From NCBI GenBank assembly GCA_021770925.1, contig JAETPY010000011.1:1-41417 (forward strand): DNA of 41,417 nt. The letters run 5' to 3'. Below the pieces are notes generated by a model that had not been told where the DNA came from, did no database searches, and saw only the letters and a program-made list of their open reading frames with translations. The stretch comes from Erysipelotrichaceae bacterium (GTDB lineage Bacteria; Bacillota_I; Bacilli_A; Erysipelotrichales; Coprobacillaceae). Within the stretch, counting starts at the first letter, position 1. Every line of letters starts with the position of its first letter. The translations under genes and the position numbers were made by a program. Below, in pieces: positions 8,318 to 35,394 of the stretch.

Positions 8318-8736
8318 TATAATTTCACCTCATCAATTGTTTTTTCTGTATTAATTACCATTTCAGTATCTTCTAAAATAAATTCTATTTCTTCATTAAC
8401 TCTTTGTTCCATTAAATCAATGGTTGGACTACTTAAAATTGTTGTACTATCACCATCCAATACTTTTGTTTTACTGTTAAAAGATATTGGTTCATTATTA
8501 AACAATATCTCCTCTGTTTTATTTTTATTTTGAGAAATAATAAAATCAGATTTTTTCTTATTTATATGCATTCCCTTACTAATTTCTTTTATTTCATTTA
8601 ATGCTGTTTTACCAGTTAAAAAATTATAAACCTTTTTAATATCGTAATGAAAATATAGAAAAACTGTCATTATGAAAAAAATGACTGATAAAACAAAACA
8701 GATTATTGCAATTACTTTAAACATTGCTGCTTCCAT
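8317..8736 (-). CDS. Small single-pass membrane protein with TTIL motif
   Basis: 139 aa, family not recognised. One N-terminal transmembrane helix (VIAIICFVLSVIFFIMTVFLYF, about 8-29) is followed by a charged, probably cytoplasmic segment. Around residues 88-103 is TKVLDGDSTTILSSPTID, resembling the threonine-rich TTVL segments of the FHA protein encoded upstream. The C-terminus is strongly acidic (EEIEFILEDTEMV). The gene sits between the kinase and the giant surface protein with one-base TAATG overlaps at both ends, so the three products are made together. A role linking the kinase to the surface protein, or as a kinase substrate, is inferred only from position and this motif. Confidence 0.75.
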   Translation of the reverse strand: MEAAMFKVIAIICFVLSVIFFIMTVFLYFHYDIKKVYNFLTGKTALNEIKEISKGMHINKKKSDFIISQNKNKTEEILFNNEPISFNSKTKVLDGDSTTILSSPTIDLMEQRVNEEIEFILEDTEMVINTEKTIDEVKL

Positions 8737-11221: not shown

Positions 11222-11231
11222 GTTTCCTCCA

Positions 11232-11269
11232 AAGGACTTATAATCAATACATATATATTATAAGTCCTT
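11232..11269. promoter_or_regulatory. Inverted pair of AGGACTTATAAT operator-like sites before the phosphatase gene
   Basis: AAGGACTTATAAT (11232-11244) and its perfect reverse complement ATTATAAGTCCTT (11257-11269) are separated by 12 bp, immediately upstream of the ribosome site. The same 12-mer occurs upstream of tadZ and the XRE gene. In RNA the two arms could also form a hairpin next to the ribosome site. Confidence 0.6.
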
Positions 11270-11290
11270 AATTTTATAAAATAAAAAATA

Positions 11291-11938
11291 TTATAAATCA
11301 AAATATGTTTTTACATCTCTAGAAAAAACTGTACATATTGCATATAAACTAATAATATTAATGATAGGTAAAAAATTCCATAAAAATATATATTTATATT
11401 TTTTAAATTCATTTTTATAAAATTCTAAACTATCATCTTCATAAATTGAGCATATTAGTTTTAAATATAGAGTAGTTATAATTTTTATAACCATAAATGA
11501 TATTAATAATAATAATAAAATTAAAATGATAAAAAGAATATATATTGTTTCTAATGAACTAACTTTTCTAGTAAAAATCATTCCCATAATCAACGCAATG
11601 ATTATGACTAACAGCATTAAAGTTAAAATCAATTTTAAAAATTGTTTAAGTACTTCCCTTTTTATTCCTACTTTTAAAAAATCGATATATTTTTGATAAA
11701 TAGAAAAATCTATTTTAAGATCACAAACAATCAATGTAACTCCGTAGGGAATAAAAGCTAATGCTATGATATCCAATACTAATGCTATTAATCCTCCAAT
11801 AAAAGGGATTTTACCAAATATCGAGATAATAAATCCATTTACAATAGTAAATAAAAATAATTTAAAATACTCTAAAAAGTTAGAAAAAATATATACAACT
11901 GCTTCCATAAACCCTGTTCTTATAAAATTATCATTCAT
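11291..11938 (-). CDS. Polytopic membrane protein of the Tad locus, unknown function
   Basis: 215 aa, not recognised. Four to five hydrophobic stretches are visible: FKLFLFTIVNGFIISIF, FIGGLIALVLDIIALAFIPYGVTLIV, FLKLILTLMLLVIIIALIMGMIF, a long ILFIILILLLLLISFMVIKII and FLWNFLPIINIISLYAI. The ATG at 11938 is preferred because GGAG lies 5 bp upstream; an in-frame ATG at 11950 has a poorer site. It is separated from the FHA gene by about 170 bp and from the phosphatase gene by 69 bp containing the paired operator-like sites. The overall look (membrane segments, 'YIDFLKVGIKREVLKQF' amphipathic stretch) resembles DUF975/DUF4013-type membrane proteins, but I am not sure of that. Confidence 0.65.
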   Translation of the reverse strand: MNDNFIRTGFMEAVVYIFSNFLEYFKLFLFTIVNGFIISIFGKIPFIGGLIALVLDIIALAFIPYGVTLIVCDLKIDFSIYQKYIDFLKVGIKREVLKQFLKLILTLMLLVIIIALIMGMIFTRKVSSLETIYILFIILILLLLLISFMVIKIITTLYLKLICSIYEDDSLEFYKNEFKKYKYIFLWNFLPIINIISLYAICTVFSRDVKTYFDL

Positions 11939-12111
11939 ATATTTCTCCATTTCCGTCTGCCTTTACTAGTTAGACACAAACATGTGATTAAAATTCTAAT
12001 TTACTATTAATCTAAATGAATTTATAATATTACTAAATGATCTGTTTTTATCATAAGTAATATCCATATTTTCTTTGATTAATGATAAATTTTATTTCCA
12101 CACTTATTAAT

Positions 12112-13434
12112 CTACATTTCAAATATAAAGTCCTCATCAGCAAGTTTTATTCTACTGCCTGAAAATAATTCAAATTTATATCCTGGTCTAACGATAGTTC
12201 CATCTACTATTGTCTTATTTGTTGAATTTAAATCTAAAATATAATATTTACCATTTTCATAATGTATTTCAGCATGTTTTCTACTTACTGCAGTATTATT
12301 ACTAATTATAAAATCATTATAATTTATATCCGTACCAATATTAAAAACTGCCTTTTTAATTTCTATTTTTTTACCATTGACTACTCTTGTAATTGTTGCA
12401 TATTTTATGCTATTTACTTGATCTACTGAAAGTACTGTTGTTCCCCCTGATAATACTGTTGTACCATCATTTTGTCCTAAAATTGTTGTACCCGTAAAAT
12501 TTCCTGATTGTATATCTTTTGCATATGTTAATTCGATATTTCTACTAATTTCATTATTAACTTTTGCTTCTTTTCGTTTAGTTAAAGTTGGAATAGAACT
12601 TTTCTTATTATCTTTTTTAGGTGTATTTTTTCTAAATGATAAAAAACTACTTTTCTTTTCTTTTTTTTGTTTATCTTTGATACCATTATTTTTTTTCTTT
12701 TTTCTTTTTAATGTAGGTATACCATCATTTCTTTTGCTTTGTGATATTTCAATTATTTCTTCTTTAGCTAAAGCTGTAACAGTTTCCTTTTTAGAAATAT
12801 CTTGAAATATAGGAATACTTTTAGATTTTGGCTTTTCTTCATTAATATTTTGATTTGGAATATTACGATGTAATGTTATTTGCTCATTTTTTATACTCAA
12901 CAATAATGATTTGATATCACTCAATGAACACTCAGGTCTACTATTTATAAAGTTTAGTATTTTAGTTACATAACTTGTATCTTCATTATTTTGATACTTA
13001 GCCATAATTAAAATATGTTTTATAAACCCGCTAAGATCAGTTACATTTTCAATATTTTCTATTGGTAAACAAATTAAATTTACTACGTTTCTTTCTTGAT
13101 CTACATATATCTTATCAACTTGTAAAAGCAGGTACTTTTTTTCAATCATATATTCGTTAACATTTTCTAAAATATCAATAATATTGATAAAAATATTGAT
13201 TAATTGATTTTTACTAATTGGGTTATGTAAAAGACTGCTTAAAGATATCAATCCTGATACATCAAAACTATAATATTTTTCATTATCTATTTGTTGAAAT
13301 GAGATTGGCAACAATCCTTTTATTTCATTATTTTTTATCATTCCTTCACAAAATATATCAATACAATCGTCCATATCAAATCTATATTCCATAAAATTGC
13401 GATCCATACTTAACTTATTCTTTAAATCAATCAT
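12112..13434 (-). CDS. FHA-domain phosphothreonine-binding protein of Tad locus
   Basis: 440 aa. The N-terminal 190 residues resemble the DUF6382-type domain found before FHA domains in Firmicutes (my recollection). The middle is a Lys/Ser-rich disordered linker (about 195-300). Three T-T-[V/I]-L motifs (TGTTILGQ, GTTVLSG, GTTVLSVD) follow near 310-333. A C-terminal FHA domain (about 355-440) shows the expected binding residues: NTAVSRKHAEIH and LNSTNKTIVDG. FHA domains bind phosphothreonine peptides, so this is the probable reader for the kinase encoded nearby. The threonine motifs could be acceptor sites bound by the FHA domain in cis or trans. It is the last gene of the block starting at tadZ. 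Confidence 0.9.
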   Translation of the reverse strand: MIDLKNKLSMDRNFMEYRFDMDDCIDIFCEGMIKNNEIKGLLPISFQQIDNEKYYSFDVSGLISLSSLLHNPISKNQLINIFINIIDILENVNEYMIEKKYLLLQVDKIYVDQERNVVNLICLPIENIENVTDLSGFIKHILIMAKYQNNEDTSYVTKILNFINSRPECSLSDIKSLLLSIKNEQITLHRNIPNQNINEEKPKSKSIPIFQDISKKETVTALAKEEIIEISQSKRNDGIPTLKRKKKKNNGIKDKQKKEKKSSFLSFRKNTPKKDNKKSSIPTLTKRKEAKVNNEISRNIELTYAKDIQSGNFTGTTILGQNDGTTVLSGGTTVLSVDQVNSIKYATITRVVNGKKIEIKKAVFNIGTDINYNDFIISNNTAVSRKHAEIHYENGKYYILDLNSTNKTIVDGTIVRPGYKFELFSGSRIKLADEDFIFEM

Positions 13435-13444
13435 CTAATCCCCC

Positions 13445-14752
13445 CTATTCATATTTCATAAAAGCATATAATTGAATACATTGCCAAATTTCCTCATTTT
13501 TAATTATTAAAATCCCATCACTATTCATCATTTTAATGTCATCAAACATTGGCGCTAAAATAATCTCATTATTTTGGTTAATTAACCCCCAGGCACCTTG
13601 ACTCTTATACCCAGCAGCACCATTCGCAAAAGAACGGGCGTCTTCATATTGATATTTAATAGCTAATTTCCCATCTGTATTAACATATCCCCATTTACTT
13701 CCCTTTTTTACTGCTGCATATTGATTTCCATTGAATGCCTTAACATCATCAAATTCTAATTTGCCAATCTTTTTTCCCGCTGTATCAATCAAATAATATT
13801 TGTCTTTTTCTTTTACAAATATACTTTCTGCATTAGCACAAAAACCATTTTCATCTAATACTATTTCATCAAACTTAAACTTCGTAAGTTGTTGTAAATC
13901 TTCATCAATCAAGGCCCATTTATTACCTTTTTTAGCAGCTGCTATCCCGTTACAAAATGGTGTCGTATAATCATACTCCATCTTATATTCATTAAAATCA
14001 CGATCTATCCAGCCATACCTTTCGTTGTAACAGGCAGGTGCATATCCATTAGCAAAATTACCCAAATAATTATATTCATGATCTCCAACTAATTTTTTAT
14101 ATCCATCTTCGTCTATATAAAACCATTGATTTCCATCAGATACAGGAGTTACTTTTTCTTCATCACTATAACAGCCAATATTTTTATAAACAGTTTCAAT
14201 AACAAGATTTCCGGTGTTATTCAACAAGCCCCAGGTTTCTCCTTTTTTTACTGGTAAATAACCATTACGCCATTGAATTGTATCATCCACATATGCTCCA
14301 ACTACCCGATAAAATGACTTATATGATTCTAAAAGTTTATCTATTTCTTTTCGATTCTTTACATTTTTTGCCTCTAAAAGAGTTTTATATGCCTCTTGAT
14401 AATTTTCAGTTTTTGCATAATATTTTGCTAATTTTACATAAGCTGTTTCATTCTCTTCATCTAGACTTATTGTATTTTTTAAAATTGTTTCAAACTGACT
14501 ATTATTACCTAGTTTAAGATATGAATCTGCTAGTTTCATTTTTACATCTATATTAGAAGGATTACTGTTAGAAGCTTCACCATAATATTCAATTGCATCA
14601 ATATATATCTCTTTTTTATATGCTTTATCACCAAGGACCATATTTTCATTAAATGTATCATCAACATCATTAAAATTTTTTATAAAACTTATTATTCCAA
14701 TCAATGATATTCCAATTATTAAAATTGTAATGTATCGTATATCCTTATTCAT
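13445..14752 (-). CDS. Membrane-anchored TPR and WG-repeat protein
   Basis: 435 aa from the ATG at 14752, which has AGGGGG 7 bp upstream (an in-frame ATG at 14767 overlaps the previous gene and has no site). Seen: an N-terminal hydrophobic helix (YITILIIGISLIGIISFI), TPR-like helices at about 30-140 (GDKAYKKEIYIDAIEYYGEAS, AYVKLAKYYAKTENYQEAYKTLLEA), then six to seven WG repeats (GETWGLLNNTGNLVIE, GRWGYV-like 'KGSKWGYVNTDGKLAI', 'QGAWGLINQNNEIIL'). WG repeats form beta modules thought to mediate protein contacts. The protein would face outward behind a single anchor. Position between the prepilin peptidase and the FHA gene suggests an accessory pilus function. In some Tad systems a TPR protein (TadD) aids assembly, but homology to TadD is not shown. 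Confidence 0.82.
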   Translation of the reverse strand: MNKDIRYITILIIGISLIGIISFIKNFNDVDDTFNENMVLGDKAYKKEIYIDAIEYYGEASNSNPSNIDVKMKLADSYLKLGNNSQFETILKNTISLDEENETAYVKLAKYYAKTENYQEAYKTLLEAKNVKNRKEIDKLLESYKSFYRVVGAYVDDTIQWRNGYLPVKKGETWGLLNNTGNLVIETVYKNIGCYSDEEKVTPVSDGNQWFYIDEDGYKKLVGDHEYNYLGNFANGYAPACYNERYGWIDRDFNEYKMEYDYTTPFCNGIAAAKKGNKWALIDEDLQQLTKFKFDEIVLDENGFCANAESIFVKEKDKYYLIDTAGKKIGKLEFDDVKAFNGNQYAAVKKGSKWGYVNTDGKLAIKYQYEDARSFANGAAGYKSQGAWGLINQNNEIILAPMFDDIKMMNSDGILIIKNEEIWQCIQLYAFMKYE

Positions 14753-14763
14753 AGCTTTCCCCC

Positions 14764-15435
14764 TCATATTAAATTAATGATAAAATTTGCTAACATCCCA
14801 ATATAGATAAATGGTGCCATTGCAATAAAATCCTTAAGCTTAACTCTCTTTAATAGCAGCATCACTATTGAATAAACAAAAGAAGCCAATAATATATAAA
14901 ATATTACATTTAAAATATTTGTGCTTCCTACGCATAACCCAATAATTGTAATTAACTTAACATCACCAGCTCCAATTCCTCCACGAGAAATCAGCATTGA
15001 AACAAAGAAGATAATAAAAGCAATTCCACCACCAATCAAAAAAGATAAAGCAAATACTTTTGCATTATCTATTTGCAAAAGTATTTGATAACAATCAAAT
15101 AAAACTACTATTATCAATAAAACTGCACACAATTTATTAGGGATAATTCTTTTTTTTATATCAATAAGCACTGCAACAAATATAATTGTAATAACAATTA
15201 AATATTTATATAAACCAGCAAAATTTAAATCCAAGTCAGCAAATATACAATATCCAAATATACCTAAAAATAATATTTGAATAAATAATGAAATATTTTC
15301 TTTATTTATTTTAAAACAATTTTTTATATTAAAATTAAACTCACTCTTTAATTCATCATATTGAAGATAGCTTGAAGAAAAAATATATAAAAATAACATA
15401 ACTAATATCATAACAAATAATTCCATTGATTCCAT
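14764..15435 (-). CDS. tadV: Prepilin peptidase, A24 family (TadV/CpaA type)
   Basis: 223 aa. Two catalytic aspartates of the aspartyl A24 family are visible: VAVLIDIKKRIIPNKL (about 89-104, DxxKRxIPN) and RGGIGAGDVKLITIIGL (about 150-166, GxGDVK). Seven to eight hydrophobic segments surround them. The enzyme cleaves the positively charged leader of Flp-type prepilins at the cytoplasmic face of the membrane; the Flp pilin and TadE-like proteins here are its likely substrates. No methyltransferase domain is present, as usual for short TadV types. The start may be the ATG at 15435 or 15426; AGGATGG is better spaced for the second. Confidence 0.92.
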   Translation of the reverse strand: MESMELFVMILVMLFLYIFSSSYLQYDELKSEFNFNIKNCFKINKENISLFIQILFLGIFGYCIFADLDLNFAGLYKYLIVITIIFVAVLIDIKKRIIPNKLCAVLLIIVVLFDCYQILLQIDNAKVFALSFLIGGGIAFIIFFVSMLISRGGIGAGDVKLITIIGLCVGSTNILNVIFYILLASFVYSIVMLLLKRVKLKDFIAMAPFIYIGMLANFIINLI

Positions 15436-15440
15436 CCTAC

Positions 15441-16676
15441 CTATTCTTCATAATAACTAACCTTTATTGTTATTCCATCATATTCTTTTGCAACTTCATC
15501 AGCATATTTTTGAGCAGTATGTTTAAGATCACTATCTTTAGGAATATAGATTTGAATAACCCCATTTTTATCCTTACTGTCTACATTTAAAACACTTCCA
15601 TTTTCCATATTTACTGTCTCTGTTTTTTTCAGATAATCCTTTAACAAACCTGCTTCTTTTTTTATTTGCTTTTTAAAATTAACTTCATTTAAAGATATAT
15701 TATTTCCCTCACTACTTAAAACATAAGAAGGATCTCCAGTATTTATAGATATAATTTGGGTAAATGTATTAGTATTTTTATCATATAGATCAAAACCATG
15801 TGTTTTATTTGTATTGACTGCTAATGCCAGGTTTTCTTTTTTTATTTTTTCAACAATTTCTTTTCCTCTTTTTAATGGCGGTTTATCCCAAACACTTGAC
15901 TTAACTTCATCTAGTTTTGTTTCCTTTGACCAGGTAGCGGTACTAGCGGTTTGTTTAATTGTAAACCTGCGATCACCAACTAAGGGAATTTTATAATCAA
16001 CAGTATAAACCGCTGTTAAATTGATAGTTCTACCATCCTCCATAATACTTGAAAGAGAAAAATTCAAACCACTCATACCATTTTCTACACCCATGCCTTC
16101 TAAAAATTCATCTGCACTCTTTTCACTAGATTCTAAATATTTAGGCATTAAAATATTAGCTACAACAGGTGCAATTATTTTAGATCTAACAGTATTTTTA
16201 ATCTCACCTTTAACAATAGAATAAATCGCATTTAATACCTCAGTAGGATTTTCAGCTACAGATTTATATTTGTTAGCTAATGATTTTCCAGCTTCTAAAA
16301 TACTTTGAACATCATTTTTAACAGTACTAACATCACTAATAGTTTTTTTTAAATCACTAGCTACTTGATCTTTCGAAAATAAACTATCACTAAAATCAAC
16401 ATCCTTAGAAGCATTCTTTATCATATTAGTAAAATTGCCAGTTTCCTTAATTAACTCATCAACTGGTTTAGTTGTATTTTCTGCAGTTTCTCCACGATAA
16501 AAGATATACATATATTGAGATAGCTCTTTAGCCGTTTGATTCAATGCATATTGAACTTTACTTTCTGCTCTAACTAAAGTTGAAAGAGAAGTAATTCCTA
16601 GAAAAGCAAACATAAAAATTGTTAATGCAATGGTTGCCTCAATTGTGACCGAACCTAATTCTCTTCTAGTCTTCAT
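15441..16676 (-). CDS. TadE/TadG-like pseudopilin
   Basis: 411 aa. A class III prepilin-like N-terminus is clear: charged MKTRREL, Gly10, then SVTIEATIALTIFMFAFLGI with Glu at +5 after the putative cleavage glycine. The remainder is an extracytoplasmic domain with helical region (about 45-180) and a beta-rich middle (SLSSIMEDGRTINLTAVYTVDYKIPLVG). GGAGG stands 8 bp before the ATG. This is a long TadE-like minor pilin; such proteins prime or tip the pilus in known Tad systems. It lies between a lipoprotein gene and the prepilin peptidase. Confidence 0.82.
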   Translation of the reverse strand: MKTRRELGSVTIEATIALTIFMFAFLGITSLSTLVRAESKVQYALNQTAKELSQYMYIFYRGETAENTTKPVDELIKETGNFTNMIKNASKDVDFSDSLFSKDQVASDLKKTISDVSTVKNDVQSILEAGKSLANKYKSVAENPTEVLNAIYSIVKGEIKNTVRSKIIAPVVANILMPKYLESSEKSADEFLEGMGVENGMSGLNFSLSSIMEDGRTINLTAVYTVDYKIPLVGDRRFTIKQTASTATWSKETKLDEVKSSVWDKPPLKRGKEIVEKIKKENLALAVNTNKTHGFDLYDKNTNTFTQIISINTGDPSYVLSSEGNNISLNEVNFKKQIKKEAGLLKDYLKKTETVNMENGSVLNVDSKDKNGVIQIYIPKDSDLKHTAQKYADEVAKEYDGITIKVSYYEE

Positions 16677-16695
16677 CTACTTTTCCTCCACTTAT

Positions 16696-17358
16696 TTAAT
16701 CATTTTCTTCTATCATTCCTATCATTTCTTCAGCTATTTTTGCTAATTCATCTGGTTCTATTTCCATCGATCCCACAAAAAATTCACATGGTATCTTATT
16801 TTCATCATCTAAAAATAAATGATATACAGCATATTTACATACTTCACCACCTGAATCCATAGCAACCCCTTTATCTAATAAGGCTTTTTTATTGCCTACT
16901 GTTGTTTCTACTGGTTGATCATTATAGACTGTATTTTCCCCAGAAAAAATGATTAAACTTAAATTTGAACTGCGGTCATTTTTAAATTTTTCACGAATAT
17001 CAGTAATACTAAAATTAGTATCAGATTTTTTGTAATTTTCAGTCGTTGTAATTAAAGCACCTAACTCTTTACCATCTTTGGTAATCATTTTAATAGAATC
17101 TGAACGCGTGCTATTATTAGTAGATATATAATTAACAGGAAGCTTTATTTTATAATAAGTTACATTAAGCTCATATTCTTCTTTATAACCTTCAAAATAC
17201 TTACTACTGACCTTATTATTATCTTTTTTATCATCTGTTTTTATTTCTTCTGATTTGTTGTTTTGATTACCTGAAACCTCTTTATTATCATTATTACTAC
17301 AACCAGTAACGGTTAATAAACATCCTAAACAAATTAATAATTTAAATATTTTTTTCAT
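16696..17358 (-). CDS. Lipoprotein of the Tad locus
   Basis: 220 aa. The N-terminus MKKIFKLLICLGCLLTVTGCSNN is a type II signal peptide with a VTGC lipobox, so the mature protein would be lipidated at Cys20 and sit on the outer face of the membrane. A Lys/Asp/Asn-rich spacer (about 23-50) precedes a compact folded domain. The annotated start at 17358 has GAGG 8 bp upstream and follows the large pseudopilin gene by one base; an upstream in-frame ATG at 17382 would destroy the signal peptide position. Function is unknown. A pilus-assembly or stability role in the Gram-positive envelope is inferred. Confidence 0.8.
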   Translation of the reverse strand: MKKIFKLLICLGCLLTVTGCSNNDNKEVSGNQNNKSEEIKTDDKKDNNKVSSKYFEGYKEEYELNVTYYKIKLPVNYISTNNSTRSDSIKMITKDGKELGALITTTENYKKSDTNFSITDIREKFKNDRSSNLSLIIFSGENTVYNDQPVETTVGNKKALLDKGVAMDSGGEVCKYAVYHLFLDDENKIPCEFFVGSMEIEPDELAKIAEEMIGMIEEND

Positions 17359-17359
17359 T

Positions 17360-20300
17360 TTAATATCCTCGTACACTTTCATAATTTAATTTTCTTGATT
17401 TTTCACTAAAACTTTTAAAATCAAAATCTTTTTGTCCTTTTTCATTTTCGATAATCGGTATATTTAAAAATGTAGTTTCTACATCAACATCACCTTTAAT
17501 CGTAATAATCGTATACATCTTTGAAAGATCATTTCCAGAATCTTTACTATTTAAATTTATTCCAATCAAATTAGCGGTACGCTGTAACATTGCATCACGT
17601 TGTGAGTTTTTATCGCTATTATCAAAATTTTGTAATAAGACAAACAGCTTTAAATATTCCTTATAATTCATCGTAAAACCAGCCCCTGCTGAATTATTCC
17701 CTTTTTTTGATGTATCAGTAACATTTGATGAAATTGATTGATTAAATTTATCAAAGGCTTTATTAATTTCTTCGGTAGCAGTGGATTTTAAATCTTCACT
17801 ATAATTACTAGCAATTTTCTGAATACTATTCTTTAATTCTCCACTTACTCCTGATATTCCCTCTTTAACTAAAGTAATAATATCTGCTCTTATATCTTCT
17901 ATTAACATATTTAATTGTTCATTTATGTTATTCAACGCTTCAGATAAATCAATTTTTTCATCAACATATTCTTTTTTTGTTATTATTATTTTTTCAACAA
18001 TATCTTCTACTGATATCAACTCAAAGATATTGTTTTTTATTTTATCACCAATATTTCCACCAAAATCACTTTTTTTTATTTCATTTAAAATATTATTTAA
18101 TTCCTGTTCTATCTTTGTTTCTGACAATTCACGATAGTCACAAATTATCTGTTCCGCCTTTTCAAATAGTACCGAAGAAATTATACTTTCGATATTTTGT
18201 GCTATATCAGAACTGACTTTATTGATATAAATATCCAAACTATTACTAATACTATCAATCCCATTACTAGAAACATCTAAAATAGTATTTGTAATATCAT
18301 CGATACCGCCAATCACAGCATTTGATACCTCGTCTTTAGCATAATTTAAAATTTCTTTACCAAATTTATCTGGCTTAAACATAAAAGTTCGATCACTTTT
18401 TAAAAAAGCTACATCATTACCATCCATTAGCTCTTTAACATCAATCGTACTTTCACCAAGAGCAAAACCACAAACTATAATCGTTCTTACTACTGGTATC
18501 ATAAAAGGCATTGAACCAGCTATAGCGGCAGCTGTATTTCTTGCAAAAGTATTAATATCTGTATCAGTCATAGCGTATAGTAAATTAAGGACAAATCTAG
18601 TTGCAAATAGCTTAGACTTCATAGCATCGATATTTGCTTGCGGGGTATCCATTCCACATAAAATATACTCTACTTCGCTTTTATAGAAGGGATTAGTATT
18701 TACATCTTTTCCAGATAAAGTAACTTGGGACTCTTTTTTATCGATTGTATAATAGCTAAACATTTCTGTCATATATTCAGATATATATAAAGTATCACGG
18801 CTATTTTCACCATCAAAAATATTTTTAAGATTAGTAATTGATTTTAGAAATGATCCCATACTGTTAAAATAATTCATAAATTTACTTACTGTCTTATTTT
18901 TATCATAGTTACCTGATTCAAAATTATTAACTTTTCCACTACCATCAGTATCTTTTGTATAACCAGCAGCGGAACTAATTGAATTATTATTAGGTAGATT
19001 ATTTTCTGCTGGTGGTTTAGCAGTAGTCAAAACTTTATCAAGTTCATTTTTTTTACTTTCATTACCATCTATGTTTTTACAAATACTTTTTAAATATTTA
19101 TAAAATTTATCTTTTTCATCAATTTTTACTGCTTTAGTTCCTGAAAAACCAGTTAGTTTATATTTGGTAAAATTCTTTTTAATGTCAGCTTCTTTTGTAT
19201 CTGGTTCGATTGATAAGGAAGAAGCTTTTATTGGCTTATTTAAATTTTTATTATAAAAAGTCCCACCTTTAACAATTGATTCAGTTAAATCATCAATATA
19301 CTGCCTATATTTAGCAATCGTATTTTGTAATGTTTCCAGATTTTTTTTATCTAGATTTCTTGCACTGCTTTTAAATTCTGCCTCCATTGATACTTTATAT
19401 TCACTTTGAGCAAGATTATTGATAGCAGTTTTATAATTATTTTTTGCTTCTTCTGCTTTCTCCATTGCTTTTTTAATTTTAGTTAATTTTTTATCTATTT
19501 CATCTAATTTATAATTAATAGTTACAAGCTTATTGTTCATTAAATTAACAGTATTTGAAATATCAGAGAATTTTTCATTTATTTTAGGCGTATAATCTGT
19601 AACTTTATTGTTTTGAATTTGATAAATAACAGTCCCTTTATCAGCAAAATCTTTTTTAAAACTTTTTACTTCCTCATATTTTTCTCGATATTCTTTATCT
19701 TCTTCACTTTCTACATAATTTTCATCTTCATATTTTTCTGACATTTCTTCATCATAATTTTTGCAATATTGTTTACAATAATAATACAATTTATTATATG
19801 GGCTATATTTCTTTTCTAAAGCTTTAACTGCATTATACATTACTTCTGGATAATTATCAGAATTTGCATTTTTTTGTGCTAATGCATTAGCTAAATTATT
19901 CTTTATAGTATTTAATTCTCTATTTAATCCATTAAGATATTTTTCTATATAACTATATAAATGATCTTGAGAACGTGATTTTAATTTTGATTTTTCTGAA
20001 TCACTTAAATTATCTTCTTTATATTTAGTAACTTTATTGTCACTTTTATTTTGAATATACAAAATCTTACAAATATAATTCATTTTAGCATCATTTATAT
20101 CTTTTAAAGTATTAATCATACCATCTATTGGTGTATCGGATATTAATGTATTATACTCATTTATCTTTTCATATGCTTCTTCACATTTTTTTCCGATTTC
20201 ACTCAATTTATCTTCATATTCCATTTTCTTATTTACCGCTTCAGCTTGTTTATCAACATCACCTAACGTCTTTAGTTTTGTTAGTAAACCTGAGGCTAAA

Positions 20301-20806
20301 CTAACAGGTCCGCGATATTTCATATATTCAATAATTTGATTTTTCATCACATCAGGATTTGTTATTTGTGATTCATTAGCACCAGCAACATTTAAATTAT
20401 TAATAGCACTGATTTTAACTAGATTATCAAATTCCTGTGAATTGGAACTATTCATAAAATTTTTAAAGCCGTTTATAATATTTAATGATACTGAATCACT
20501 ACCCTGGATTATTGAAGAACTTTCTAAATTATTATTAAAATACATTTCTGCTTGATTTTTAAAACTGCCGGGATCAGCTTTGGTTGCGAGTAAACCATAA
20601 TTATCATAAAGTTCATCATGAAATTCTGATAACAAAGCATTAAGAACTAGATCCCCTGAACTTGTAACTACCGTCTTAGCTGCATCTAGTCTAGCTCCGT
20701 CAAATACATAGCCGCCAAACACAAATGATGGTAACATGATAATAATTAAAAATACGGTTACGCCACCTCGACATTTTTTAGTAAAAAAATCCATTAATTT
20801 TTTCAC
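17360..20806 (-). CDS. Giant TadG/DUF5702-like pseudopilin with coiled coils
   Basis: 1148 aa. The N-terminus MKKLMDFFTKKCRGGVTVFL plus a hydrophobic segment (VTVFLIIIMLPSFVFGGYVF) resembles a TadG-type or DUF5702 leader, but without the Glu+5. DUF5702 naming is from memory. It continues with DGARLDAAKTVVTSSGDLVLNALLSEFHDELYDNYGL, a pattern seen in Firmicute Tad loci. Residues about 180-480 are long charged helices, likely coiled coil; 640-790 contain a conserved-looking globular and hydrophobic part (NTFARNTAAAIAGSMPFMIPVVRTIIVCGFALGEST); 800-1030 are again helical. It is far larger than ordinary TadE/F/G proteins. It would be a large extracytoplasmic structure anchored by one helix. Function is inferred. 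Confidence 0.75.
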   Translation of the reverse strand: MKKLMDFFTKKCRGGVTVFLIIIMLPSFVFGGYVFDGARLDAAKTVVTSSGDLVLNALLSEFHDELYDNYGLLATKADPGSFKNQAEMYFNNNLESSSIIQGSDSVSLNIINGFKNFMNSSNSQEFDNLVKISAINNLNVAGANESQITNPDVMKNQIIEYMKYRGPVSLASGLLTKLKTLGDVDKQAEAVNKKMEYEDKLSEIGKKCEEAYEKINEYNTLISDTPIDGMINTLKDINDAKMNYICKILYIQNKSDNKVTKYKEDNLSDSEKSKLKSRSQDHLYSYIEKYLNGLNRELNTIKNNLANALAQKNANSDNYPEVMYNAVKALEKKYSPYNKLYYYCKQYCKNYDEEMSEKYEDENYVESEEDKEYREKYEEVKSFKKDFADKGTVIYQIQNNKVTDYTPKINEKFSDISNTVNLMNNKLVTINYKLDEIDKKLTKIKKAMEKAEEAKNNYKTAINNLAQSEYKVSMEAEFKSSARNLDKKNLETLQNTIAKYRQYIDDLTESIVKGGTFYNKNLNKPIKASSLSIEPDTKEADIKKNFTKYKLTGFSGTKAVKIDEKDKFYKYLKSICKNIDGNESKKNELDKVLTTAKPPAENNLPNNNSISSAAGYTKDTDGSGKVNNFESGNYDKNKTVSKFMNYFNSMGSFLKSITNLKNIFDGENSRDTLYISEYMTEMFSYYTIDKKESQVTLSGKDVNTNPFYKSEVEYILCGMDTPQANIDAMKSKLFATRFVLNLLYAMTDTDINTFARNTAAAIAGSMPFMIPVVRTIIVCGFALGESTIDVKELMDGNDVAFLKSDRTFMFKPDKFGKEILNYAKDEVSNAVIGGIDDITNTILDVSSNGIDSISNSLDIYINKVSSDIAQNIESIISSVLFEKAEQIICDYRELSETKIEQELNNILNEIKKSDFGGNIGDKIKNNIFELISVEDIVEKIIITKKEYVDEKIDLSEALNNINEQLNMLIEDIRADIITLVKEGISGVSGELKNSIQKIASNYSEDLKSTATEEINKAFDKFNQSISSNVTDTSKKGNNSAGAGFTMNYKEYLKLFVLLQNFDNSDKNSQRDAMLQRTANLIGINLNSKDSGNDLSKMYTIITIKGDVDVETTFLNIPIIENEKGQKDFDFKSFSEKSRKLNYESVRGY

Positions 20807-20811
20807 CCCTC

Positions 20812-21504
20812 TTATTTAAAATTTAAAAATGAGAATTGTTCTATAATTTTATTAATAACATCTTTTGCATTATCTGACACTTTGCATTTTTTTGCTAAAA
20901 AATCACCCAAATCAAATACAATGTCTGTATTTCTAAGAAATTCAGAACTATCACTAACAAAAGCTACAGTTGTAAATTCCTTATTTATCTCTGTTGGCAA
21001 ACCTAAGAAATTAAAGAATTTAGGTAATTCAACTTTGCTATTAACAACGACCTCTACTTTATTCGATAAAATGCCTAATTTAGGTTTTATTTTTACACTT
21101 GTAATACTTGCATTAGAATCAAAATAAGCCTTTTTTTTCATAATATTTTCTAATTTTGTATTAGCACTACCATCTATTTTTTTTTCGCCAATTCCCCAAT
21201 AACGGTATGGATCTAAATCACGATATATTTCTTTTATCAAACCAGTATCAAATCCATTTATTGCCTCAAAATCTATTTTATTAGTTTCGACTTCTCCATA
21301 TTTTGTATAGCCGGATTGAACCATTATTCTACCAGCAACATCAGCCACACGATCTGCTCGAGATTGTAAAGTTGCTATTTCTAATTGATAGTAGCCCATA
21401 ATAAACAAGAAACATACAATGATAAAAACGATTGGCATTACAATAGAAGCTTCTACAATCGTAGCCGCTCCTTTTTCATTTTTTAATTGTTCAACTACTT
21501 TCAT
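20812..21504 (-). CDS. tadE: TadE-like pseudopilin
   Basis: 230 aa from the ATG at 21504, chosen because AAGGAGGG lies about 6 bp upstream (the longer in-frame start at 21528 has no site). The N-terminus is prepilin-like: EQLKNEKG, then AATIVEASIVMPIVFIIVCFLFIMGY, with Gly before the cleavage point and Glu shortly after. The rest is a secreted domain (SRADRVADVAGRIMVQSGY). TadE-type proteins are minor pilins processed by the A24 peptidase and needed for Tad pilus assembly. The gene lies directly after the Flp pilin gene. Confidence 0.85.
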   Translation of the reverse strand: MKVVEQLKNEKGAATIVEASIVMPIVFIIVCFLFIMGYYQLEIATLQSRADRVADVAGRIMVQSGYTKYGEVETNKIDFEAINGFDTGLIKEIYRDLDPYRYWGIGEKKIDGSANTKLENIMKKKAYFDSNASITSVKIKPKLGILSNKVEVVVNSKVELPKFFNFLGLPTEINKEFTTVAFVSDSSEFLRNTDIVFDLGDFLAKKCKVSDNAKDVINKIIEQFSFLNFK

Positions 21505-21532
21505 AAAAGCCCTCCTTAATATATTCATTTGT

Positions 21533-21745
21533 CTAATGTGATCCTAATCCACTAGTATCCCCAATTTGATTAAATAGATTATTAATCAATTCCATGATCC
21601 GATCCTTAAATAGCCATGCTATCGCTACAGCAATAACAATAATTAAAATAACTGCCACAATATCTGCAGCCCCTTTTTCATCATTTAAAAAACCAATTAA
21701 TCTTTCTTTTAATAAAAATTTTTTCATTTCTAAATACGTTAACAT
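21533..21745 (-). CDS. flp: Flp-type (Flp1-like) type IVb pilin
   Basis: 70 aa. Seen: a short basic leader, NDEKG at 21-25, then AADIVAVILIIVIAVAIAWLF and an amphipathic helix with a short C-terminus ending GLGSH. The size and single hydrophobic helix after a Gly fit the major Flp pilin, specifically the Flp1-like variant of Gram-positives; the GxxxxEY signature of proteobacterial Flp is absent, with Asp at +3 instead. AGGAG stands 7 bp before the ATG. Processing at Gly25 by the locus peptidase is predicted. This is the only major pilin candidate in the locus. Confidence 0.85.
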   Translation of the reverse strand: MLTYLEMKKFLLKERLIGFLNDEKGAADIVAVILIIVIAVAIAWLFKDRIMELINNLFNQIGDTSGLGSH

Positions 21746-21760
21746 TTCCCTTCTCCTTTT

Positions 21761-22630
21761 CTAAAACATATTTGTGAACAATGGAACAATAATAACAACT
21801 AAAACGCCCATAAAAATAATACCTGTTGGAATTAGTAGTTTTGCATCAGCTGCTGCTCCTTTTTGAATTGTTCGCTGCTTTTTCTCATGCCAGCTTTCTT
21901 CTGATAATTCTCTTAATGATTTTGCTAATTCACCACTTCCTTTTTCTAAATTCTGTTCAATAACTGAAATAAACTTTTTTATCTCTTTTACATTACATCG
22001 ATTGGAAAAATTTAATAAAGCCTCATGAGTTGAAATACCATTATTCATCTCATATTCAGCTTTTTGCATTTCTAAATAAAGTTCCCGATCATTATTAGAA
22101 GCTATTTTTGCCCAGGCCTCTTTTAAAATAAGCCCAGTATTAATTAATAAAGCCATTTTAGATAATACAGTGGGTAAATCTTTTAATAAATTATCATGAC
22201 GGTTATTTACTGCTTCTAAAACAGAATAATCAATGTAATATCCTAATATTAATCCACACACTAATGCTAAAATTGCAAGCTCAATACTATCTGCAATTAT
22301 TGAAATCATCATTCCAATTGGAATGATTGTAAGAATATATGAGATTTGTCCTGCAACATTGACATATAAAAAATATTCTGCGTTTTGCTCCCCTTTTATT
22401 TCAACTAAACTTTTTAATTTCTTTTGAAAATATGGACTATGTAAATCTAATTTGAATTTTTCAATTATACAAAATCCAATTTGAAACAATCCTGGTAGAA
22501 AATATTCTTCACTATCAATATCTGCGATTTGCTCTTCATACCTTCCTTTGGAAACAATCATTAAATAAAGCCAAAATAATGTAAATAATAAACCTGCTAT
22601 TAATATTGCTATTTTTATTCTTATTGTCAT
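21761..22630 (-). CDS. tadC: Tad pilus inner-membrane platform protein TadC
   Basis: 289 aa, type II secretion F domain family. Hydrophobic helix near residues 4-26 (ILIAGLLFTLFWLYLMIV), a central pair (ILTIIPIGMMISIIA, LAILALVCGLILGYYI), then the F domain helical bundle with LLKDLPTVLSKMALLINTGLILKEAW, LEKGSGELAKSLRELSEE and a final helix IPTGIIFMGVLVVIIVPLF. The GSGELAxxLRELS pattern is typical of TadC. With TadB it forms the membrane platform on which the TadA ATPase acts. Confidence 0.9.
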   Translation of the reverse strand: MTIRIKIAILIAGLLFTLFWLYLMIVSKGRYEEQIADIDSEEYFLPGLFQIGFCIIEKFKLDLHSPYFQKKLKSLVEIKGEQNAEYFLYVNVAGQISYILTIIPIGMMISIIADSIELAILALVCGLILGYYIDYSVLEAVNNRHDNLLKDLPTVLSKMALLINTGLILKEAWAKIASNNDRELYLEMQKAEYEMNNGISTHEALLNFSNRCNVKEIKKFISVIEQNLEKGSGELAKSLRELSEESWHEKKQRTIQKGAAADAKLLIPTGIIFMGVLVVIIVPLFTNMF

Positions 22631-22632
22631 CT

Positions 22633-23418
22633 CTATACCTCTATCTTAATAATTTTCAAACCTATTCTATATGCAAGAATGAAGATTAGCAGAGCAACTA
22701 TTTTAGTCAAAATAGTTGTAAAATTAAATGACATAATGGCATCAAAACCCATTGTCTGCATCATTGCAATAATAGCAAACGGCATTAAAATGATTATATT
22801 CAACTGATTTTTATTTCCAGCAATAATCGTATTAATTTCTAGTTCTATATCAATTTTTTGAGTAATTATTTCTTTGCAGTCATTGATGATTATTTTTAAA
22901 TTTCCGCCTAATCTAGTACAGGTACAAAAAGTGTCGCAAAAATCTTTTATATCATCTAAATGACTTCTAGCAGCAAAATTTTCCAGTAGTTTTTCAACTA
23001 CAATATTATTATGTAAACCACCTACGATAATATTAACTTCTTCTGTTATGTATGCGCTTTCACCGTGCTGATTAATCATATCTTGTAAAGCATTATTAAA
23101 TGAATCAGTAACATTATCCCCTGCTGCTAACGAATTGCTTAATGAATCTAATAAATCTCTAAATTCTAATAATAATTTTTTCTTTCTTTTTTCTAAAAGA
23201 TATTTTTTATATGCAGGTATTGTTCTAATACCAAAAATTATTGCAATAATAAAACTAATAACAGCTATTCCAAAAAAAATTTGAATGGCCAAAAATGAAA
23301 GTATAAAACCAATAATAAAACCTATAAGTTTTTCTTTAATACCAATATCGATATAGTTATAATCAATAGCATTAGTATAAATTCCATCTATCAATTCATA
23401 TTTTTCTTTTTTAAACAT
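22633..23418 (-). CDS. tadB: Tad pilus inner-membrane platform protein TadB
   Basis: 261 aa, type II secretion F domain. Two hydrophobic helices near 30-70 (KLIGFIIGFILSFLAIQIFFGIAVISFIIAIIFGI), the helical F domain (LLEFRDLLDSLSNSLAAGDNVTDSFNNAL; DIKDFCDTFCTCTRLGGNLKIIINDC), and two C-terminal helices. The DLLDSLSNSLAAG and TRLGGNL segments are characteristic of TadB. It lies between tadA and tadC with gaps of 11 and 2 bp, so it is translated as part of one operon. Confidence 0.88.
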   Translation of the reverse strand: MFKKEKYELIDGIYTNAIDYNYIDIGIKEKLIGFIIGFILSFLAIQIFFGIAVISFIIAIIFGIRTIPAYKKYLLEKRKKKLLLEFRDLLDSLSNSLAAGDNVTDSFNNALQDMINQHGESAYITEEVNIIVGGLHNNIVVEKLLENFAARSHLDDIKDFCDTFCTCTRLGGNLKIIINDCKEIITQKIDIELEINTIIAGNKNQLNIIILMPFAIIAMMQTMGFDAIMSFNFTTILTKIVALLIFILAYRIGLKIIKIEV

Positions 23419-23429
23419 AATACTTTCCC

Positions 23430-24668
23430 CTAAATTTTTATATTAAATCCTGCTAATTTTAACTTATGAGTATTTTTAAACTCATTAGAAGTTCTTAATA
23501 ATTTTCCTGATACTTTTTCTAGACTTGTTTTTTCATCTTCAACAAACTGATAAATTGGATTTAAAATTATTTTTCCTTTCTCATATCCTAATACTTCACT
23601 TATTTCCATTGTTTTCCTTGAATGATCCCTCAATCTTGATAAATGAATAATAATATCTAAAGATGATGCAATTTGTTGCCTTACAGCATCCAATGGCAAT
23701 CCTTCAGATCCTGTTAAAACCATTGTTTCCAAACGACTCAGCATATCCTGAGTTGAATTAGCATGTCCTGTGGATAAAGAACCATCGTGCCCTGTATTCA
23801 TCGCTTGAAGCATATCTAATGCCTCAGATCCTCTAACCTCACCAACAATAATTCTTTCTGGCCGCATTCTTAATGACGATTTTATTAAATCTCTAATACT
23901 TACCGCTCCAGCACCTGTTGTATTAGCATTTCTAGTTTCTAAACTAACTAAATTCTCAATTCCCACAAGTTGTAATTCAGCTGAATCTTCAATTGTTATG
24001 ATTCTCTCCTCTTTAGGAATATAGTTCGACAATGCATTTAAAAAGGTTGTTTTTCCTGAGCCTGTTCCACCTGAAACAAAAATATTATATTTAGCTTTTA
24101 CTAAACATTTTAAAATTTTAGCTATCTCTGGTGTAATAGAGCCAAATTTAATCAATTGTTCCATAGTCATTGGCGTTTTAGAAAACTTTCGAATTGTAAC
24201 AATTGGTCCACTTAAAGAAATTGGCGGCAAAACTACATTAACACGCGAACCATCAGGTAACCGTGTGTCTACAATTGGATTAGCTTGATTAACTTCTCTC
24301 CCTGCTAGCCCAACAATTTTTTGAATTATATCCTCTAGACGCTCTTCAGATTCAAATTTCTCATCTATTTTTATTAGTTCTCCATTTTTTTCAATAAAAA
24401 TATTTTCATATCCATTTATCATTACTTCAGTAATACTATCATCACTAATTATTGAATCCAAAATTCCTAATCCCCTAATTGAACTATATATACGTTCAAT
24501 TAATTTTACTTGTTCCTGAATTGAAATATATCTACCTTTAGTTATTTCTAATAGTAGTTCACTAATTTTTTCTTGCAATAAATCATCAGAAAAATCTTTA
24601 AGTGAATATTCTTTAAGTAAAATGTCTTTAATTCTAGCTATTATCTCATTTTTATATTCTTCCTTCAT
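23430..24668 (-). CDS. tadA: Tad pilus assembly ATPase TadA/CpaF
   Basis: 412 aa, standard CpaF length. Walker A GGTGSGKTTFLNAL (about 199-212), Asp box ITIEDSAELQL (about 223-233), Walker B-containing RMRPERIIVGEVRGSEALDMLQAMNTGHDGSLSTGHAN (about 263-300, includes the His box) and the upstream DDSITEVMINGYENIFIE segment define the PilT/VirB11-like secretion ATPase family. It powers assembly (and possibly retraction) of the Flp pilus from the cytoplasm. Fully intact. Confidence 0.95.
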   Translation of the reverse strand: MKEEYKNEIIARIKDILLKEYSLKDFSDDLLQEKISELLLEITKGRYISIQEQVKLIERIYSSIRGLGILDSIISDDSITEVMINGYENIFIEKNGELIKIDEKFESEERLEDIIQKIVGLAGREVNQANPIVDTRLPDGSRVNVVLPPISLSGPIVTIRKFSKTPMTMEQLIKFGSITPEIAKILKCLVKAKYNIFVSGGTGSGKTTFLNALSNYIPKEERIITIEDSAELQLVGIENLVSLETRNANTTGAGAVSIRDLIKSSLRMRPERIIVGEVRGSEALDMLQAMNTGHDGSLSTGHANSTQDMLSRLETMVLTGSEGLPLDAVRQQIASSLDIIIHLSRLRDHSRKTMEISEVLGYEKGKIILNPIYQFVEDEKTSLEKVSGKLLRTSNEFKNTHKLKLAGFNIKI

Positions 24669-24675
24669 AAAATTC

Positions 24676-25737
24676 CTATATATTAGTTAAAATATCTTTA
24701 GAGACTATTTCGTCAATTATTATCTTATCATCATGTGTCGTATATTTATTCACCATAGCTAGAACTGGTATTTCTACATTTTGAATAGTATTATTAAATG
24801 ATGAACTCATTTTATTGTAGATAACACTTATTTTTTGACAAACAGTAGTTTCTTCTCTTTCATCAATTAAAGATAAAGAATTTATTAGTTTTAAAAATTT
24901 ATAATTACTTGTTTTGCTTCCATCAACAACAAATCTAAGTGTATCACTTGATTCAAAAATAAACTTTTCTACTAATGAAAAATCTATATTACGATCAATC
25001 ACAATATAATCAAAACCTATTTGTTTAAATGCATTAAATAATTTACGAATATCTTCAATGTTATTTATTTCCAATTTATCTAATAAAATAGCAGGAGATG
25101 AACAATAAAATACACCACTATCATGTTTAATTAATACTTTTTCTAATTTTGATACTAAATTTACGTCATATTTCTTTATTAAAAACACTATATTACTAAA
25201 AGTATTATTTTTACTATTTTCAAAATAGATATCGGTAGTATCAAAATACTCTAAATTCAAATATAAAACTTTAGCTCCTAATTTAGCTTTAGAAACTGCT
25301 TCACTAATGGCAATAGTTGATGTTCCTGTTCCACCGCTAAAAGATGTATAAGTTATTAATTTAGTTTGTCCTACAAATGTATTATTTAAATTCGTATTTA
25401 TTTCAAAATAATTTTCATAAATATCTTTGATTTTTTCATAAAACTCACTAATTTTTTGAAATTTAGTAATTGTTTCAAAATCATCAATTTTATTAATTTC
25501 TTTAGTTTCACTAAAATATACTTTTGCTATCTTAATATCATTTATTTCTCTTAAATCAAACATTTGATTATTTACAATCAATATGTGTATACTATTTAAA
25601 TCAACTGAATTTAATAAACTTTGTTTAGAAGTAAAAATATATAATTCTAATTTTTTTCCATACCTATTTTTTAAAGCAGTAAATATCTTATTTAAATATT
25701 TTTGATCATTATCCAACAATGCCACCTTTATTTTCAC
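24676..25737 (-). CDS. tadZ: TadZ/CpaE-like pilus localisation ATPase, atypical Walker A
   Basis: 353 aa with a GTG start; a GAGGTG ribosome site lies 6 bp upstream, and an ATG two bases earlier is followed at once by TGA. An N-terminal receiver-like domain (KVALLDNDQKYLNKI, about 3-115; key phosphorylation Asp not obvious) precedes a MinD/ParA-type domain beginning LITYTSFSGGTGTSTIAISEA near 127-148. The canonical KGGxGKT is changed to SGGTGTST, so both lysines are missing. TadZ proteins place the pilus machinery in the cell; some from gut Firmicutes are described as having atypical Walker motifs. First gene of the Tad operon. Confidence 0.85.
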   Translation of the reverse strand: MKIKVALLDNDQKYLNKIFTALKNRYGKKLELYIFTSKQSLLNSVDLNSIHILIVNNQMFDLREINDIKIAKVYFSETKEINKIDDFETITKFQKISEFYEKIKDIYENYFEINTNLNNTFVGQTKLITYTSFSGGTGTSTIAISEAVSKAKLGAKVLYLNLEYFDTTDIYFENSKNNTFSNIVFLIKKYDVNLVSKLEKVLIKHDSGVFYCSSPAILLDKLEINNIEDIRKLFNAFKQIGFDYIVIDRNIDFSLVEKFIFESSDTLRFVVDGSKTSNYKFLKLINSLSLIDEREETTVCQKISVIYNKMSSSFNNTIQNVEIPVLAMVNKYTTHDDKIIIDEIVSKDILTNI

Positions 25738-25761: not shown

Positions 25762-25790
25762 ATATTACTACCTACAGGACTTATTGTCAA
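25762..25790 (-). promoter_or_regulatory. Promoter of the Tad operon
   Basis: On the minus strand, TTGACA (25785-25790), a 17-bp spacer and TAATAT (25762-25767) lie about 25 bp upstream of the tadZ GTG. An AGGACTTATTGT operator-like site (25776-25787) covers the spacer and the edge of the -35, so a protein bound there should block RNA polymerase. Confidence 0.75.
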
Positions 25791-25807
25791 CTTTTAGGAC
25801 TTATAAT
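25776..25807. promoter_or_regulatory. Direct pair of operator-like sites over tadZ promoter
   Basis: AGGACTTATTGT (25776-25787) and AGGACTTATAAT (25796-25807) are direct repeats 20 bp apart, i.e. about two helical turns. They sit over and just upstream of the -35. Same motif as before the phosphatase gene and the XRE gene. Confidence 0.65.
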
Positions 25808-25963
25808 AAACATCCGACGCTTTACTTTATTTTTAAAAAATTAAACAGTAATCTAATAATTTTTATTTTACTAACATATTTTTAATTTTAATTTATGAGT
25901 TTATGTCAAATTTATTTAAGTAATTAAACTTTTTATATGAACAATAGTTTTAATTCAAAAATA

Positions 25964-25991
25964 CTTATTAGTCCTTTTTAGGACTTATAGT
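25964..25991. promoter_or_regulatory. Inverted pair of operator-like sites before the XRE gene
   Basis: AGTCCT (25970-25975), TTTT, AGGACT (25980-25985) form a palindrome. The right site reads AGGACTTATAGT; the left, on the minus strand, reads AGGACTAATAAG. It lies about 55 bp upstream of the XRE start, where an autorepressor would be expected to act. The remainder of 25808-25963 is AT-rich DNA with no gene seen. Confidence 0.6.
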
Positions 25992-26046
25992 AACTTTATA
26001 TTTAATAATTTTCTAGGTATTATGTATATAATTTGGAGATGATTAA

Positions 26047-34254: not shown

Positions 34255-35394
34255 ATGAAAATTTTAGGATTAATAGTTGAATATAACCCTTTCCATCAGG
34301 GTCATCTTTTCCATTTAAATAGAGCAAAAGAAATTATAAATCCTGATATTACGATTATTGTAATGTCAGGACATTTTGTTCAGCGAGGTGAACCTGCTAT
34401 TAGTGATAAGTGGACTAGAGCTAATGTTGCAATTAAAAATGGAATTGATCTAGTAATTGAACTGCCTTTTGTCTATAGTGTTCAGAGTGCGGATTATTTT
34501 GCTCATGGAGCAATTGAATTACTTGCAAAAATGAATGTTACTGATATTGTTTTCGGCAGTGAAAATGGTGATATAAATATTTTTACAGATATTGCTTATA
34601 CTATTAAAAGAAATAAGAGCCAATATAATCATTTAGTTAAACAACAAATGAATTTAGGTTTGCGTTATCCTGATGCTTGTAATCAGGCTTTATCAATATT
34701 AATGAATAAAACTATTACTACACCTAATGATTTATTAGGTTTAGCGTATGTAAAAGATGTTATTGATCACGAATATTCAATTGACTTACATTGTATAAAA
34801 AGAACTAATGATTTTCACAGTTTAAAGATTGAGACAATTAGTTCTGCTAGTGCTATTCGTCATGCCTTAAAAAACAAAATTGATATTGTTGATCAATTTT
34901 GTAATTATAATGATTATCAAGAGTTTTATTTCTTTGAAGATTTTTTTCTCTTTTTACGTTATAAACTTTTAACAACAGGGAAAGAAGAACTTAAACAGAT
35001 TCATTTAGTCGATGAAGGAATCGAAAATTTGCTTAAAGATAAGATAGAAACATGTAAAAATATGGAAGAATTAATCTTAAGCTTAACTTCTAAACGCTAT
35101 ACCCGCTCACGAATCCAGCGAATGTTAATTCACATTTTAATGAATAATACTAAAGATGAGATCATAGAAGCAATGAATTTAGATTATATTAGGATCTTAA
35201 AGATGAGTAATAATGGTCAAGCTTATTTAAACAAAATAAAAAAGAGCTGTGAATACAAATTAGTGACTAATTTTTCTAGTCATTACCATCCTGCTCTTGA
35301 GATTGAATTTAAAGCTACTAAATTATTATCATGTTTATCTAAAGATCCTCGCAATTTAATTATGCTTGAATATAAAAGTATTCCAAAGACCTAA
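34255..35394 (+). CDS. tmcAL: tRNA(Met) cytidine acetate ligase
   Basis: 379 aa from the ATG at 34255, preceded by AGGTG; an in-frame ATG at 34225 would add a residue string not found in the family. The N-terminus GLIVEYNPFHQGHLFHLNRAK holds the HxGH nucleotidyltransferase motif, followed by MSGHFVQRGEPAISDKWTRA and ELPFVYSVQSADYFAHGAI. This is the TmcAL (YlbM) family, which uses acetate and ATP to form N4-acetylcytidine at the wobble base of elongator tRNA-Met. The terminator overlaps its stop. Confidence 0.93.
   Translation: MKILGLIVEYNPFHQGHLFHLNRAKEIINPDITIIVMSGHFVQRGEPAISDKWTRANVAIKNGIDLVIELPFVYSVQSADYFAHGAIELLAKMNVTDIVFGSENGDINIFTDIAYTIKRNKSQYNHLVKQQMNLGLRYPDACNQALSILMNKTITTPNDLLGLAYVKDVIDHEYSIDLHCIKRTNDFHSLKIETISSASAIRHALKNKIDIVDQFCNYNDYQEFYFFEDFFLFLRYKLLTTGKEELKQIHLVDEGIENLLKDKIETCKNMEELILSLTSKRYTRSRIQRMLIHILMNNTKDEIIEAMNLDYIRILKMSNNGQAYLNKIKKSCEYKLVTNFSSHYHPALEIEFKATKLLSCLSKDPRNLIMLEYKSIPKT

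Follow-up and report, generated by a model that had tools for sequence, protein, structure and literature searches.

Paired boxes shared by an XRE regulator gene, a Tad pilus cluster and a phosphatase-kinase unit in Thomasclavelia: a probable operator set of the cluster-encoded regulator

Phage switches have a divergent layout of repressor and target promoters. Controller (C) proteins of restriction-modification (R-M) systems, such as C.AhdI and C.Esp1396I, are small XRE/HTH_3 regulators whose own genes are preceded by paired operators; the published C-box consensus, GACTTATAGTC, is quasi-palindromic, and the C-protein sites are separated by approximately 4 bp and face opposite sides of the helix (PMC4321490). 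SinR of Bacillus subtilis, which represses biofilm operons, recognises the motif GTTCTYT. It is a protein of approximately 111 aa with an HTH (1-69) and a two-helix oligomerisation domain (74-111), its sites are known in several orientations, and it binds direct repeats no better than single sites (PMC3163267). In the vanG operon, VanU(G) is a cluster-encoded XRE repressor that binds repeats in two promoters of the cluster, one of them the promoter of its own operon; it controls vancomycin resistance genes in competition with VanR (PMC4405338). In our literature search, no regulator dedicated to a Tad locus of the kind described here came to light for Bacillota.

In this study, we report the analysis of a 41,417-nucleotide contig of a Thomasclavelia genome (the whole of this stretch is called the window), which makes up 1.4% of the 2,879,776-base (2.88-Mb) assembly and carries an XRE regulator gene, divergent from tadZ, together with Tad pilus genes and a PP2C phosphatase/kinase unit. 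A preliminary description of the window had proposed that a 12-mer, present in pairs upstream of the PP2C, tadZ and XRE genes, ties these genes into a compact regulon, and all six copies were located at these three places (Table 1). It is probable that the six boxes are three operator pairs, through which the XRE protein, their putative binder, represses tadZ and the PP2C gene and also regulates its own gene.

Table 1. Positions of the boxes, promoters, genes and proposed transcription units in the window
Feature	Position	Strand	Remarks
Proposed second controlled unit	3419-11221	-	PP2C phosphatase, Ser/Thr kinase, 139-aa protein, 1632-aa Ig-like surface protein
PP2C operator box b (AGGACTTATAAT)	11233-11244	+	Exact; immediately upstream of the PP2C ribosome-binding site
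PP2C operator box a (AGGACTTATAAT)	11257-11268	-	Exact; inverted relative to box b; axis-to-axis 20 bp
Proposed first controlled unit	11291-25737	-	Gene order kept in three species; spacing suggests a single operon
Predicted tadZ promoter, TTGACA-17-TAATAT	25762-25790	-	-35 at 25790-25785, second hexamer at 25767-25762
tadZ operator box s1 (AGGACTTATTGT)	25776-25787	+	2 mismatches; extends over the spacer and the 3' half of the tadZ -35; retained in T. saccharogumia and T. cocleata
tadZ operator box s2 (AGGACTTATAAT)	25796-25807	+	Exact; direct repeat 20 bp from s1, upstream of the -35
XRE operator box a (AGGACTAATAAG)	25964-25975	-	2 mismatches; identical in T. saccharogumia
XRE operator box b (AGGACTTATAGT)	25980-25991	+	1 mismatch; 10/11 match to GACTTATAGTC from base 3 on
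Predicted XRE promoter, TTTATA-17-TATTAT	25995-26023	+	Both hexamers invariant in four species
XRE (HTH_3) regulator, 110 aa	26047-26379	+	HTH approximately 6-70; predicted two-helix tail 74-107

Against the Pfam HTH_3 model, the XRE protein scored 54.8 bits (cut-off 23; E=9.5e-15), which places it in the XRE/Cro-CI family. The first proposed unit contains tadZ, tadA, tadB and tadC, followed by genes for a Flp1-like pilin, a TadE-like protein, a large DUF5702 protein, a lipoprotein, a second TadE-like protein, an A24 prepilin peptidase, a TPR/WG protein, a DUF6382-FHA protein and a membrane protein. It was recognised as a Tad locus by matches above the cut-off to TadZ-like_ARD, T2SSE, Flp1_like and Peptidase_A24; T2SSF and TadE matched below it, and the TadA-family ATPase model (9.8e-94) was below its own cut-off. 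The Flp1_like match (E=1.2e-15) came from a 70-aa ORF on the reverse strand (21533-21745), located between tadC and the TadE-like gene and under the 90-aa ORF cut-off, which is likely to encode the major pilin. The PP2C, Ser/Thr kinase and DUF6382-FHA genes (8736-13434, reverse strand) lie inside the Tad cluster; they form a phospho-signalling set of eukaryote-like type, which three species retain along with the pilus genes. An interval of approximately 160 bp (11951-12111) separates the FHA gene from the gene for a 219-aa membrane protein here; in the two relatives described below it measures only approximately 15-20 bp. The 1632-aa protein (3419-8317, reverse strand), which gave a weak Ig-like match and seems to have a membrane anchor at its C-terminus, is a possible adhesin or kinase target; this and the 139-aa protein are the fastest diverging in the cluster (54-67% identity).

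The exact 12-mer occurs three times in the genome, all three copies being within the window. With at most one mismatch, 33 copies were counted genome-wide compared with 67 for a reversed-pattern control, so the motif is not enriched elsewhere. The earlier statement that the window holds no further copy is correct for exact copies and for pairs but not for single copies, as a 1-mismatch copy falls within a coding ORF (34333-34344) and several 2-mismatch copies are present. At three mismatches, 114 copies were found in the window against 111.6 +/- 11 by chance; hence the signal sits in exact or near-exact pairs and not in a loose motif, and the special feature of the motif is its pairing and position. 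The chance level of the 3-mismatch copies would suit a mere similarity among AT-rich promoter sequences, but such an explanation is contradicted by the genome-wide rarity of the pairs, as well as by the conservation and cross-species ranking given below, and is extremely improbable.

The XRE-tad-kinase cluster of Thomasclavelia is also present in T. saccharogumia and T. cocleata (XRE orthologues of 92% and 84%, respectively), where the order XRE, tadZ, tad genes, FHA, PP2C, kinase and large Ig-like protein is identical. No tadZ was found in the other six genomes of the genus, and a TadZ search of 295 genomes of the order returned one weak match outside the genus. Further relatives of the XRE protein were not confirmed in viral contigs, and genome contigs yielded three relatives within the genus and one distant match. 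Conservation of the motif between relatives, which the preliminary description had named as a check, was observed: all three species have the paired boxes at tadZ and PP2C, and two have them at XRE, where the pair of T. cocleata is reorganised. Alignment of the tadZ-XRE intergenic region showed the boxes standing out against diverged sequence. Over both intergenic regions, the three species agree at 55 of 72 box columns, compared with 91 of 210 other intergenic columns, promoter and leader having been subtracted from the latter (p=1.2e-6). The PP2C region alone gave no excess conservation of the boxes (18/24 against 22/34 columns, p=0.57), because the whole of this short region is conserved. 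The strongest test in the analysis is the cross-species matrix ranking, since the window was excluded from training: with a matrix trained on T. saccharogumia and T. cocleata only, the boxes of the window took ranks 1-6 of the 41 kb. When T. saccharogumia was left out in the same manner, its six boxes were within the top 8 and included the top 5; in T. cocleata, boxes were three of the top four matches, and the weak XRE pair scored poorly.

Pattern searches, which were used for all genome-wide motif work, found no comparable pair elsewhere in nine genomes of the genus. The direct-pair pattern matched the tadZ site only in each of the three cluster-bearing genomes, and gave one unrelated match in a genome without the cluster; reversed controls gave two matches in the nine genomes. 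Head-to-head and tail-to-tail patterns recovered the XRE and PP2C pairs, plus others that lacked the ATAAT part or belonged to a repeated element or a terminator-like repeat. One inverted AGGAC pair, C37 of T. saccharogumia, is a repeat resembling a terminator, with a run of T after it and a gene starting MLLSVKKWVIKMFMGEF downstream, and is not operator-like. Neither are two inverted AGGAC matches in another member of the genus, which are found on two contigs within almost identical sequence, one of them beside a 585-aa ORF taken for an intron-encoded protein. A single high-scoring box in T. cocleata (L071), AGGACTAGTAGTAA, located approximately 180 bp upstream of leuS, is unpaired and probably due to chance.

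A caveat to the XRE protein as the binder is the presence of several other XRE paralogues in the genome, as in each genome of the genus; one of these, or some other regulator, might bind the boxes, with the neighbouring XRE protein acting elsewhere. This appears decidedly improbable given that no box pairs were found away from this XRE gene and its cluster, that the loci of the nearest paralogues (L121, L122 and L124) hold no box at up to 2 mismatches, and that the boxes of the XRE promoter disappear together with the cluster. In T. cocleata, the flanking genes galT, lacI and PBP were not found within 60 kb around the cluster (PBP is on another contig), thus the XRE gene travels with the tad genes, and its move with them to a different neighbourhood was counted in favour of the XRE-operator model.

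The joint loss was seen in strain VE202-01, where galT and lacI are followed by XRE, with no tad genes between and no tadZ match. The XRE gene there is a fragment ended by the contig end (98% over 43 aa), and the rest of it, which was not found, probably lies in an assembly gap. Comparison with the XRE promoter of the window revealed 100% agreement over 62 bases, beginning within box b at window base 25985; nothing upstream of this base is left, the AGGAC of box b and the whole of box a included, and the core promoter hexamers remain. Target loss and operator loss coincide, in this one species only. On L073:9259-9648, lacI is followed by approximately 275 bp without a good match in the compared regions and then by the XRE promoter, and the lacI-XRE interval has the appearance of a scar left by a lost tad cluster.

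The geometries of the pairs are as described previously, namely inverted with a 12-bp gap (PP2C), direct with a 20-bp period (tadZ) and inverted with a 4-bp gap (XRE). The flexible dimers invoked to accommodate them can be replaced by a single rule of 20 bp between box centres. If p is the position of the axis in the 12-mer, the distance between axes is 20 at tadZ, 3+2p at XRE and 37-2p at PP2C, and p=8.5, between box bases 8 and 9, sets all of them to 20; with this axis, nine of nine pairs (three promoters in three species) are exactly 20 bp apart. The XRE pair of T. cocleata is a direct 20-bp repeat, compared with an inverted pair in the other species, the AGG end of box a having switched strand about an unchanged axis with the spacing kept. 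Since the rule was noticed after looking, and since dyad symmetry within the box was not significant (axis 8, z=1.2; axis 8.5, z=0.4; 16 sites), it is treated as a good lead only. From this spacing we infer that each box would be the site of one XRE dimer, and that two dimers, two helical turns (20 bp) apart, would bind cooperatively.

Alternatively, AGGACT could be the half-site of one monomer, with a flexible-armed, SinR-like tetramer binding the pairs in any orientation. Such binding would accord with the several orientations of SinR sites, with the SinR-like size and predicted layout of the XRE protein (HTH and two C-terminal helices, in a low-confidence model) and with AGTCCTttttAGGACT, a good 16-bp palindrome in front of XRE. 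However, conservation spans 12-14 bases (consensus AGGACTTATARTaa) and so exceeds AGGACT, the spacing about a single axis is a constant 20 bp, SinR gains nothing over a single site from direct repeats, the arrangement seen at tadZ, and T. cocleata has lost the XRE palindrome and retained the 20-bp spacing. We therefore consider a half-site arrangement rather unlikely.

At tadZ, the TTGACA hexamer is kept in the three aligned species and the second hexamer is TAATAT or TAAGAT. The claim that one box sits between the -35 and -10 was confirmed, as s1 covers the 17-bp spacer along with part of the -35. Relative to the inferred start, the axes are at approximately -28 (s1) and -48 (s2), which is a repressor position, and repression of tadZ fits. 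The XRE boxes are located just before a weak -35, and their axes are at approximately -42 and -62 relative to the inferred start. For PP2C, no clear sigma-70 promoter was found, and for this reason the sign of control at PP2C and XRE is less certain; box b ends near the ribosome-binding site, a placement that would suit a block of initiation or of read-through.

For the favoured model of XRE dimers on paired boxes, we infer the sign at each promoter as follows. Dimers over the -35/-10 spacer of tadZ and the region upstream of the -35 would exclude RNA polymerase and thereby silence the pilus operon. Dimers just upstream of the weak -35 of the XRE gene would lead to autoregulation, and mild self-activation is as likely as self-repression because the position of the boxes is that of a class II activator. 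Phage lambda CI activates PRM from a comparable position. At PP2C, dimers would occupy the last part of the intergenic region as far as the ribosome-binding site, and may block initiation or stop read-through from the tad operon; C.Kpn2I has been reported to act as a roadblock (PMC6237814).

The inverted pair at PP2C might also be read as a leader RNA hairpin that hides or frees the ribosome-binding site, and not as a DNA operator. It forms a perfect 13-bp stem adjoining the ribosome-binding site, and the folding z-scores are -4.5 and -4.1 in two species and -2.2 in T. cocleata. However, any inverted operator would fold likewise, the direct repeat at tadZ is unable to form such a hairpin, and in T. 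cocleata both boxes are still recognisable in spite of two mismatches in the stem, which makes the hairpin reading very improbable.

Among the described systems, C.AhdI and C.Esp1396I are among the best PDB matches to the XRE protein, and the XRE gene resembles those of C proteins in the paired sites upstream of it. Box b of XRE is close to the C-box, the other boxes match it less well, and dyad symmetry over the 16 sites was not significant; the axes are 20 bp apart in place of approximately 4 bp. The residues with which C.Esp1396I reads bases, T36 and R46, are not kept, their counterparts in the alignment being N33 and S43; the XRE protein is longer, and no restriction or methylation gene was seen in the conserved cluster of tad and kinase genes (flanking ORFs were scanned in part). 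That a C-box-like operator system has been taken over by a Tad pilus/Ser/Thr-kinase cluster, with the XRE protein activating itself from approximately -42 and repressing tadZ from the spacer to give a two-state, cell-by-cell pilus switch, is doubtful and distinctly unlikely.

The HTH of SinR is similar to that of the XRE protein (E=5.6e-5) and the two proteins are of comparable size, with helices predicted at 74-88 and 92-107 in an AlphaFold model of the XRE protein that is too poor for fold searches (mean pLDDT 52); the tail had no sequence match. The AGGACTTATAR of the boxes differs from the SinR motif, and no SinI-like antagonist was identified here. Of the RstR/DicA/P22-C2 phage repressors, RstR (NF041951) was the best NCBIfam model, spanning XRE residues 6-107 (E=4.4e-10) with 39.8 bits, below its cut-off of 80; the XRE-tadZ arrangement is divergent as in phage switches, but the XRE gene here is not in a phage. 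VanU(G) is similar in being encoded in the cluster and acting at more than one of its promoters, but belongs to an unrelated cluster. As the base-reading residues of C.Esp1396I are not kept and RstR is below the cut-off, the XRE protein is not called a C-protein, SinR or RstR; it would be an XRE regulator working in the manner of these proteins, and none of them by name.

Of the compact XRE/tad/PP2C-kinase regulon proposed at the outset, the shared operator has held up, through its conservation in three species, the matrix ranking, the want of a comparable pair elsewhere in nine genomes and the VE202-01 loss, and the flexible dimers have not. Wiring by a cluster-encoded regulator is of an ordinary kind. 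In Thomasclavelia, the boxes would link a single such regulator with pilus building, with phospho-signalling and with a large surface protein, in a gut-bacterial cluster where Tad pili and eukaryote-like kinase, phosphatase and FHA genes are co-located, and they supply the exact bases to mutate.
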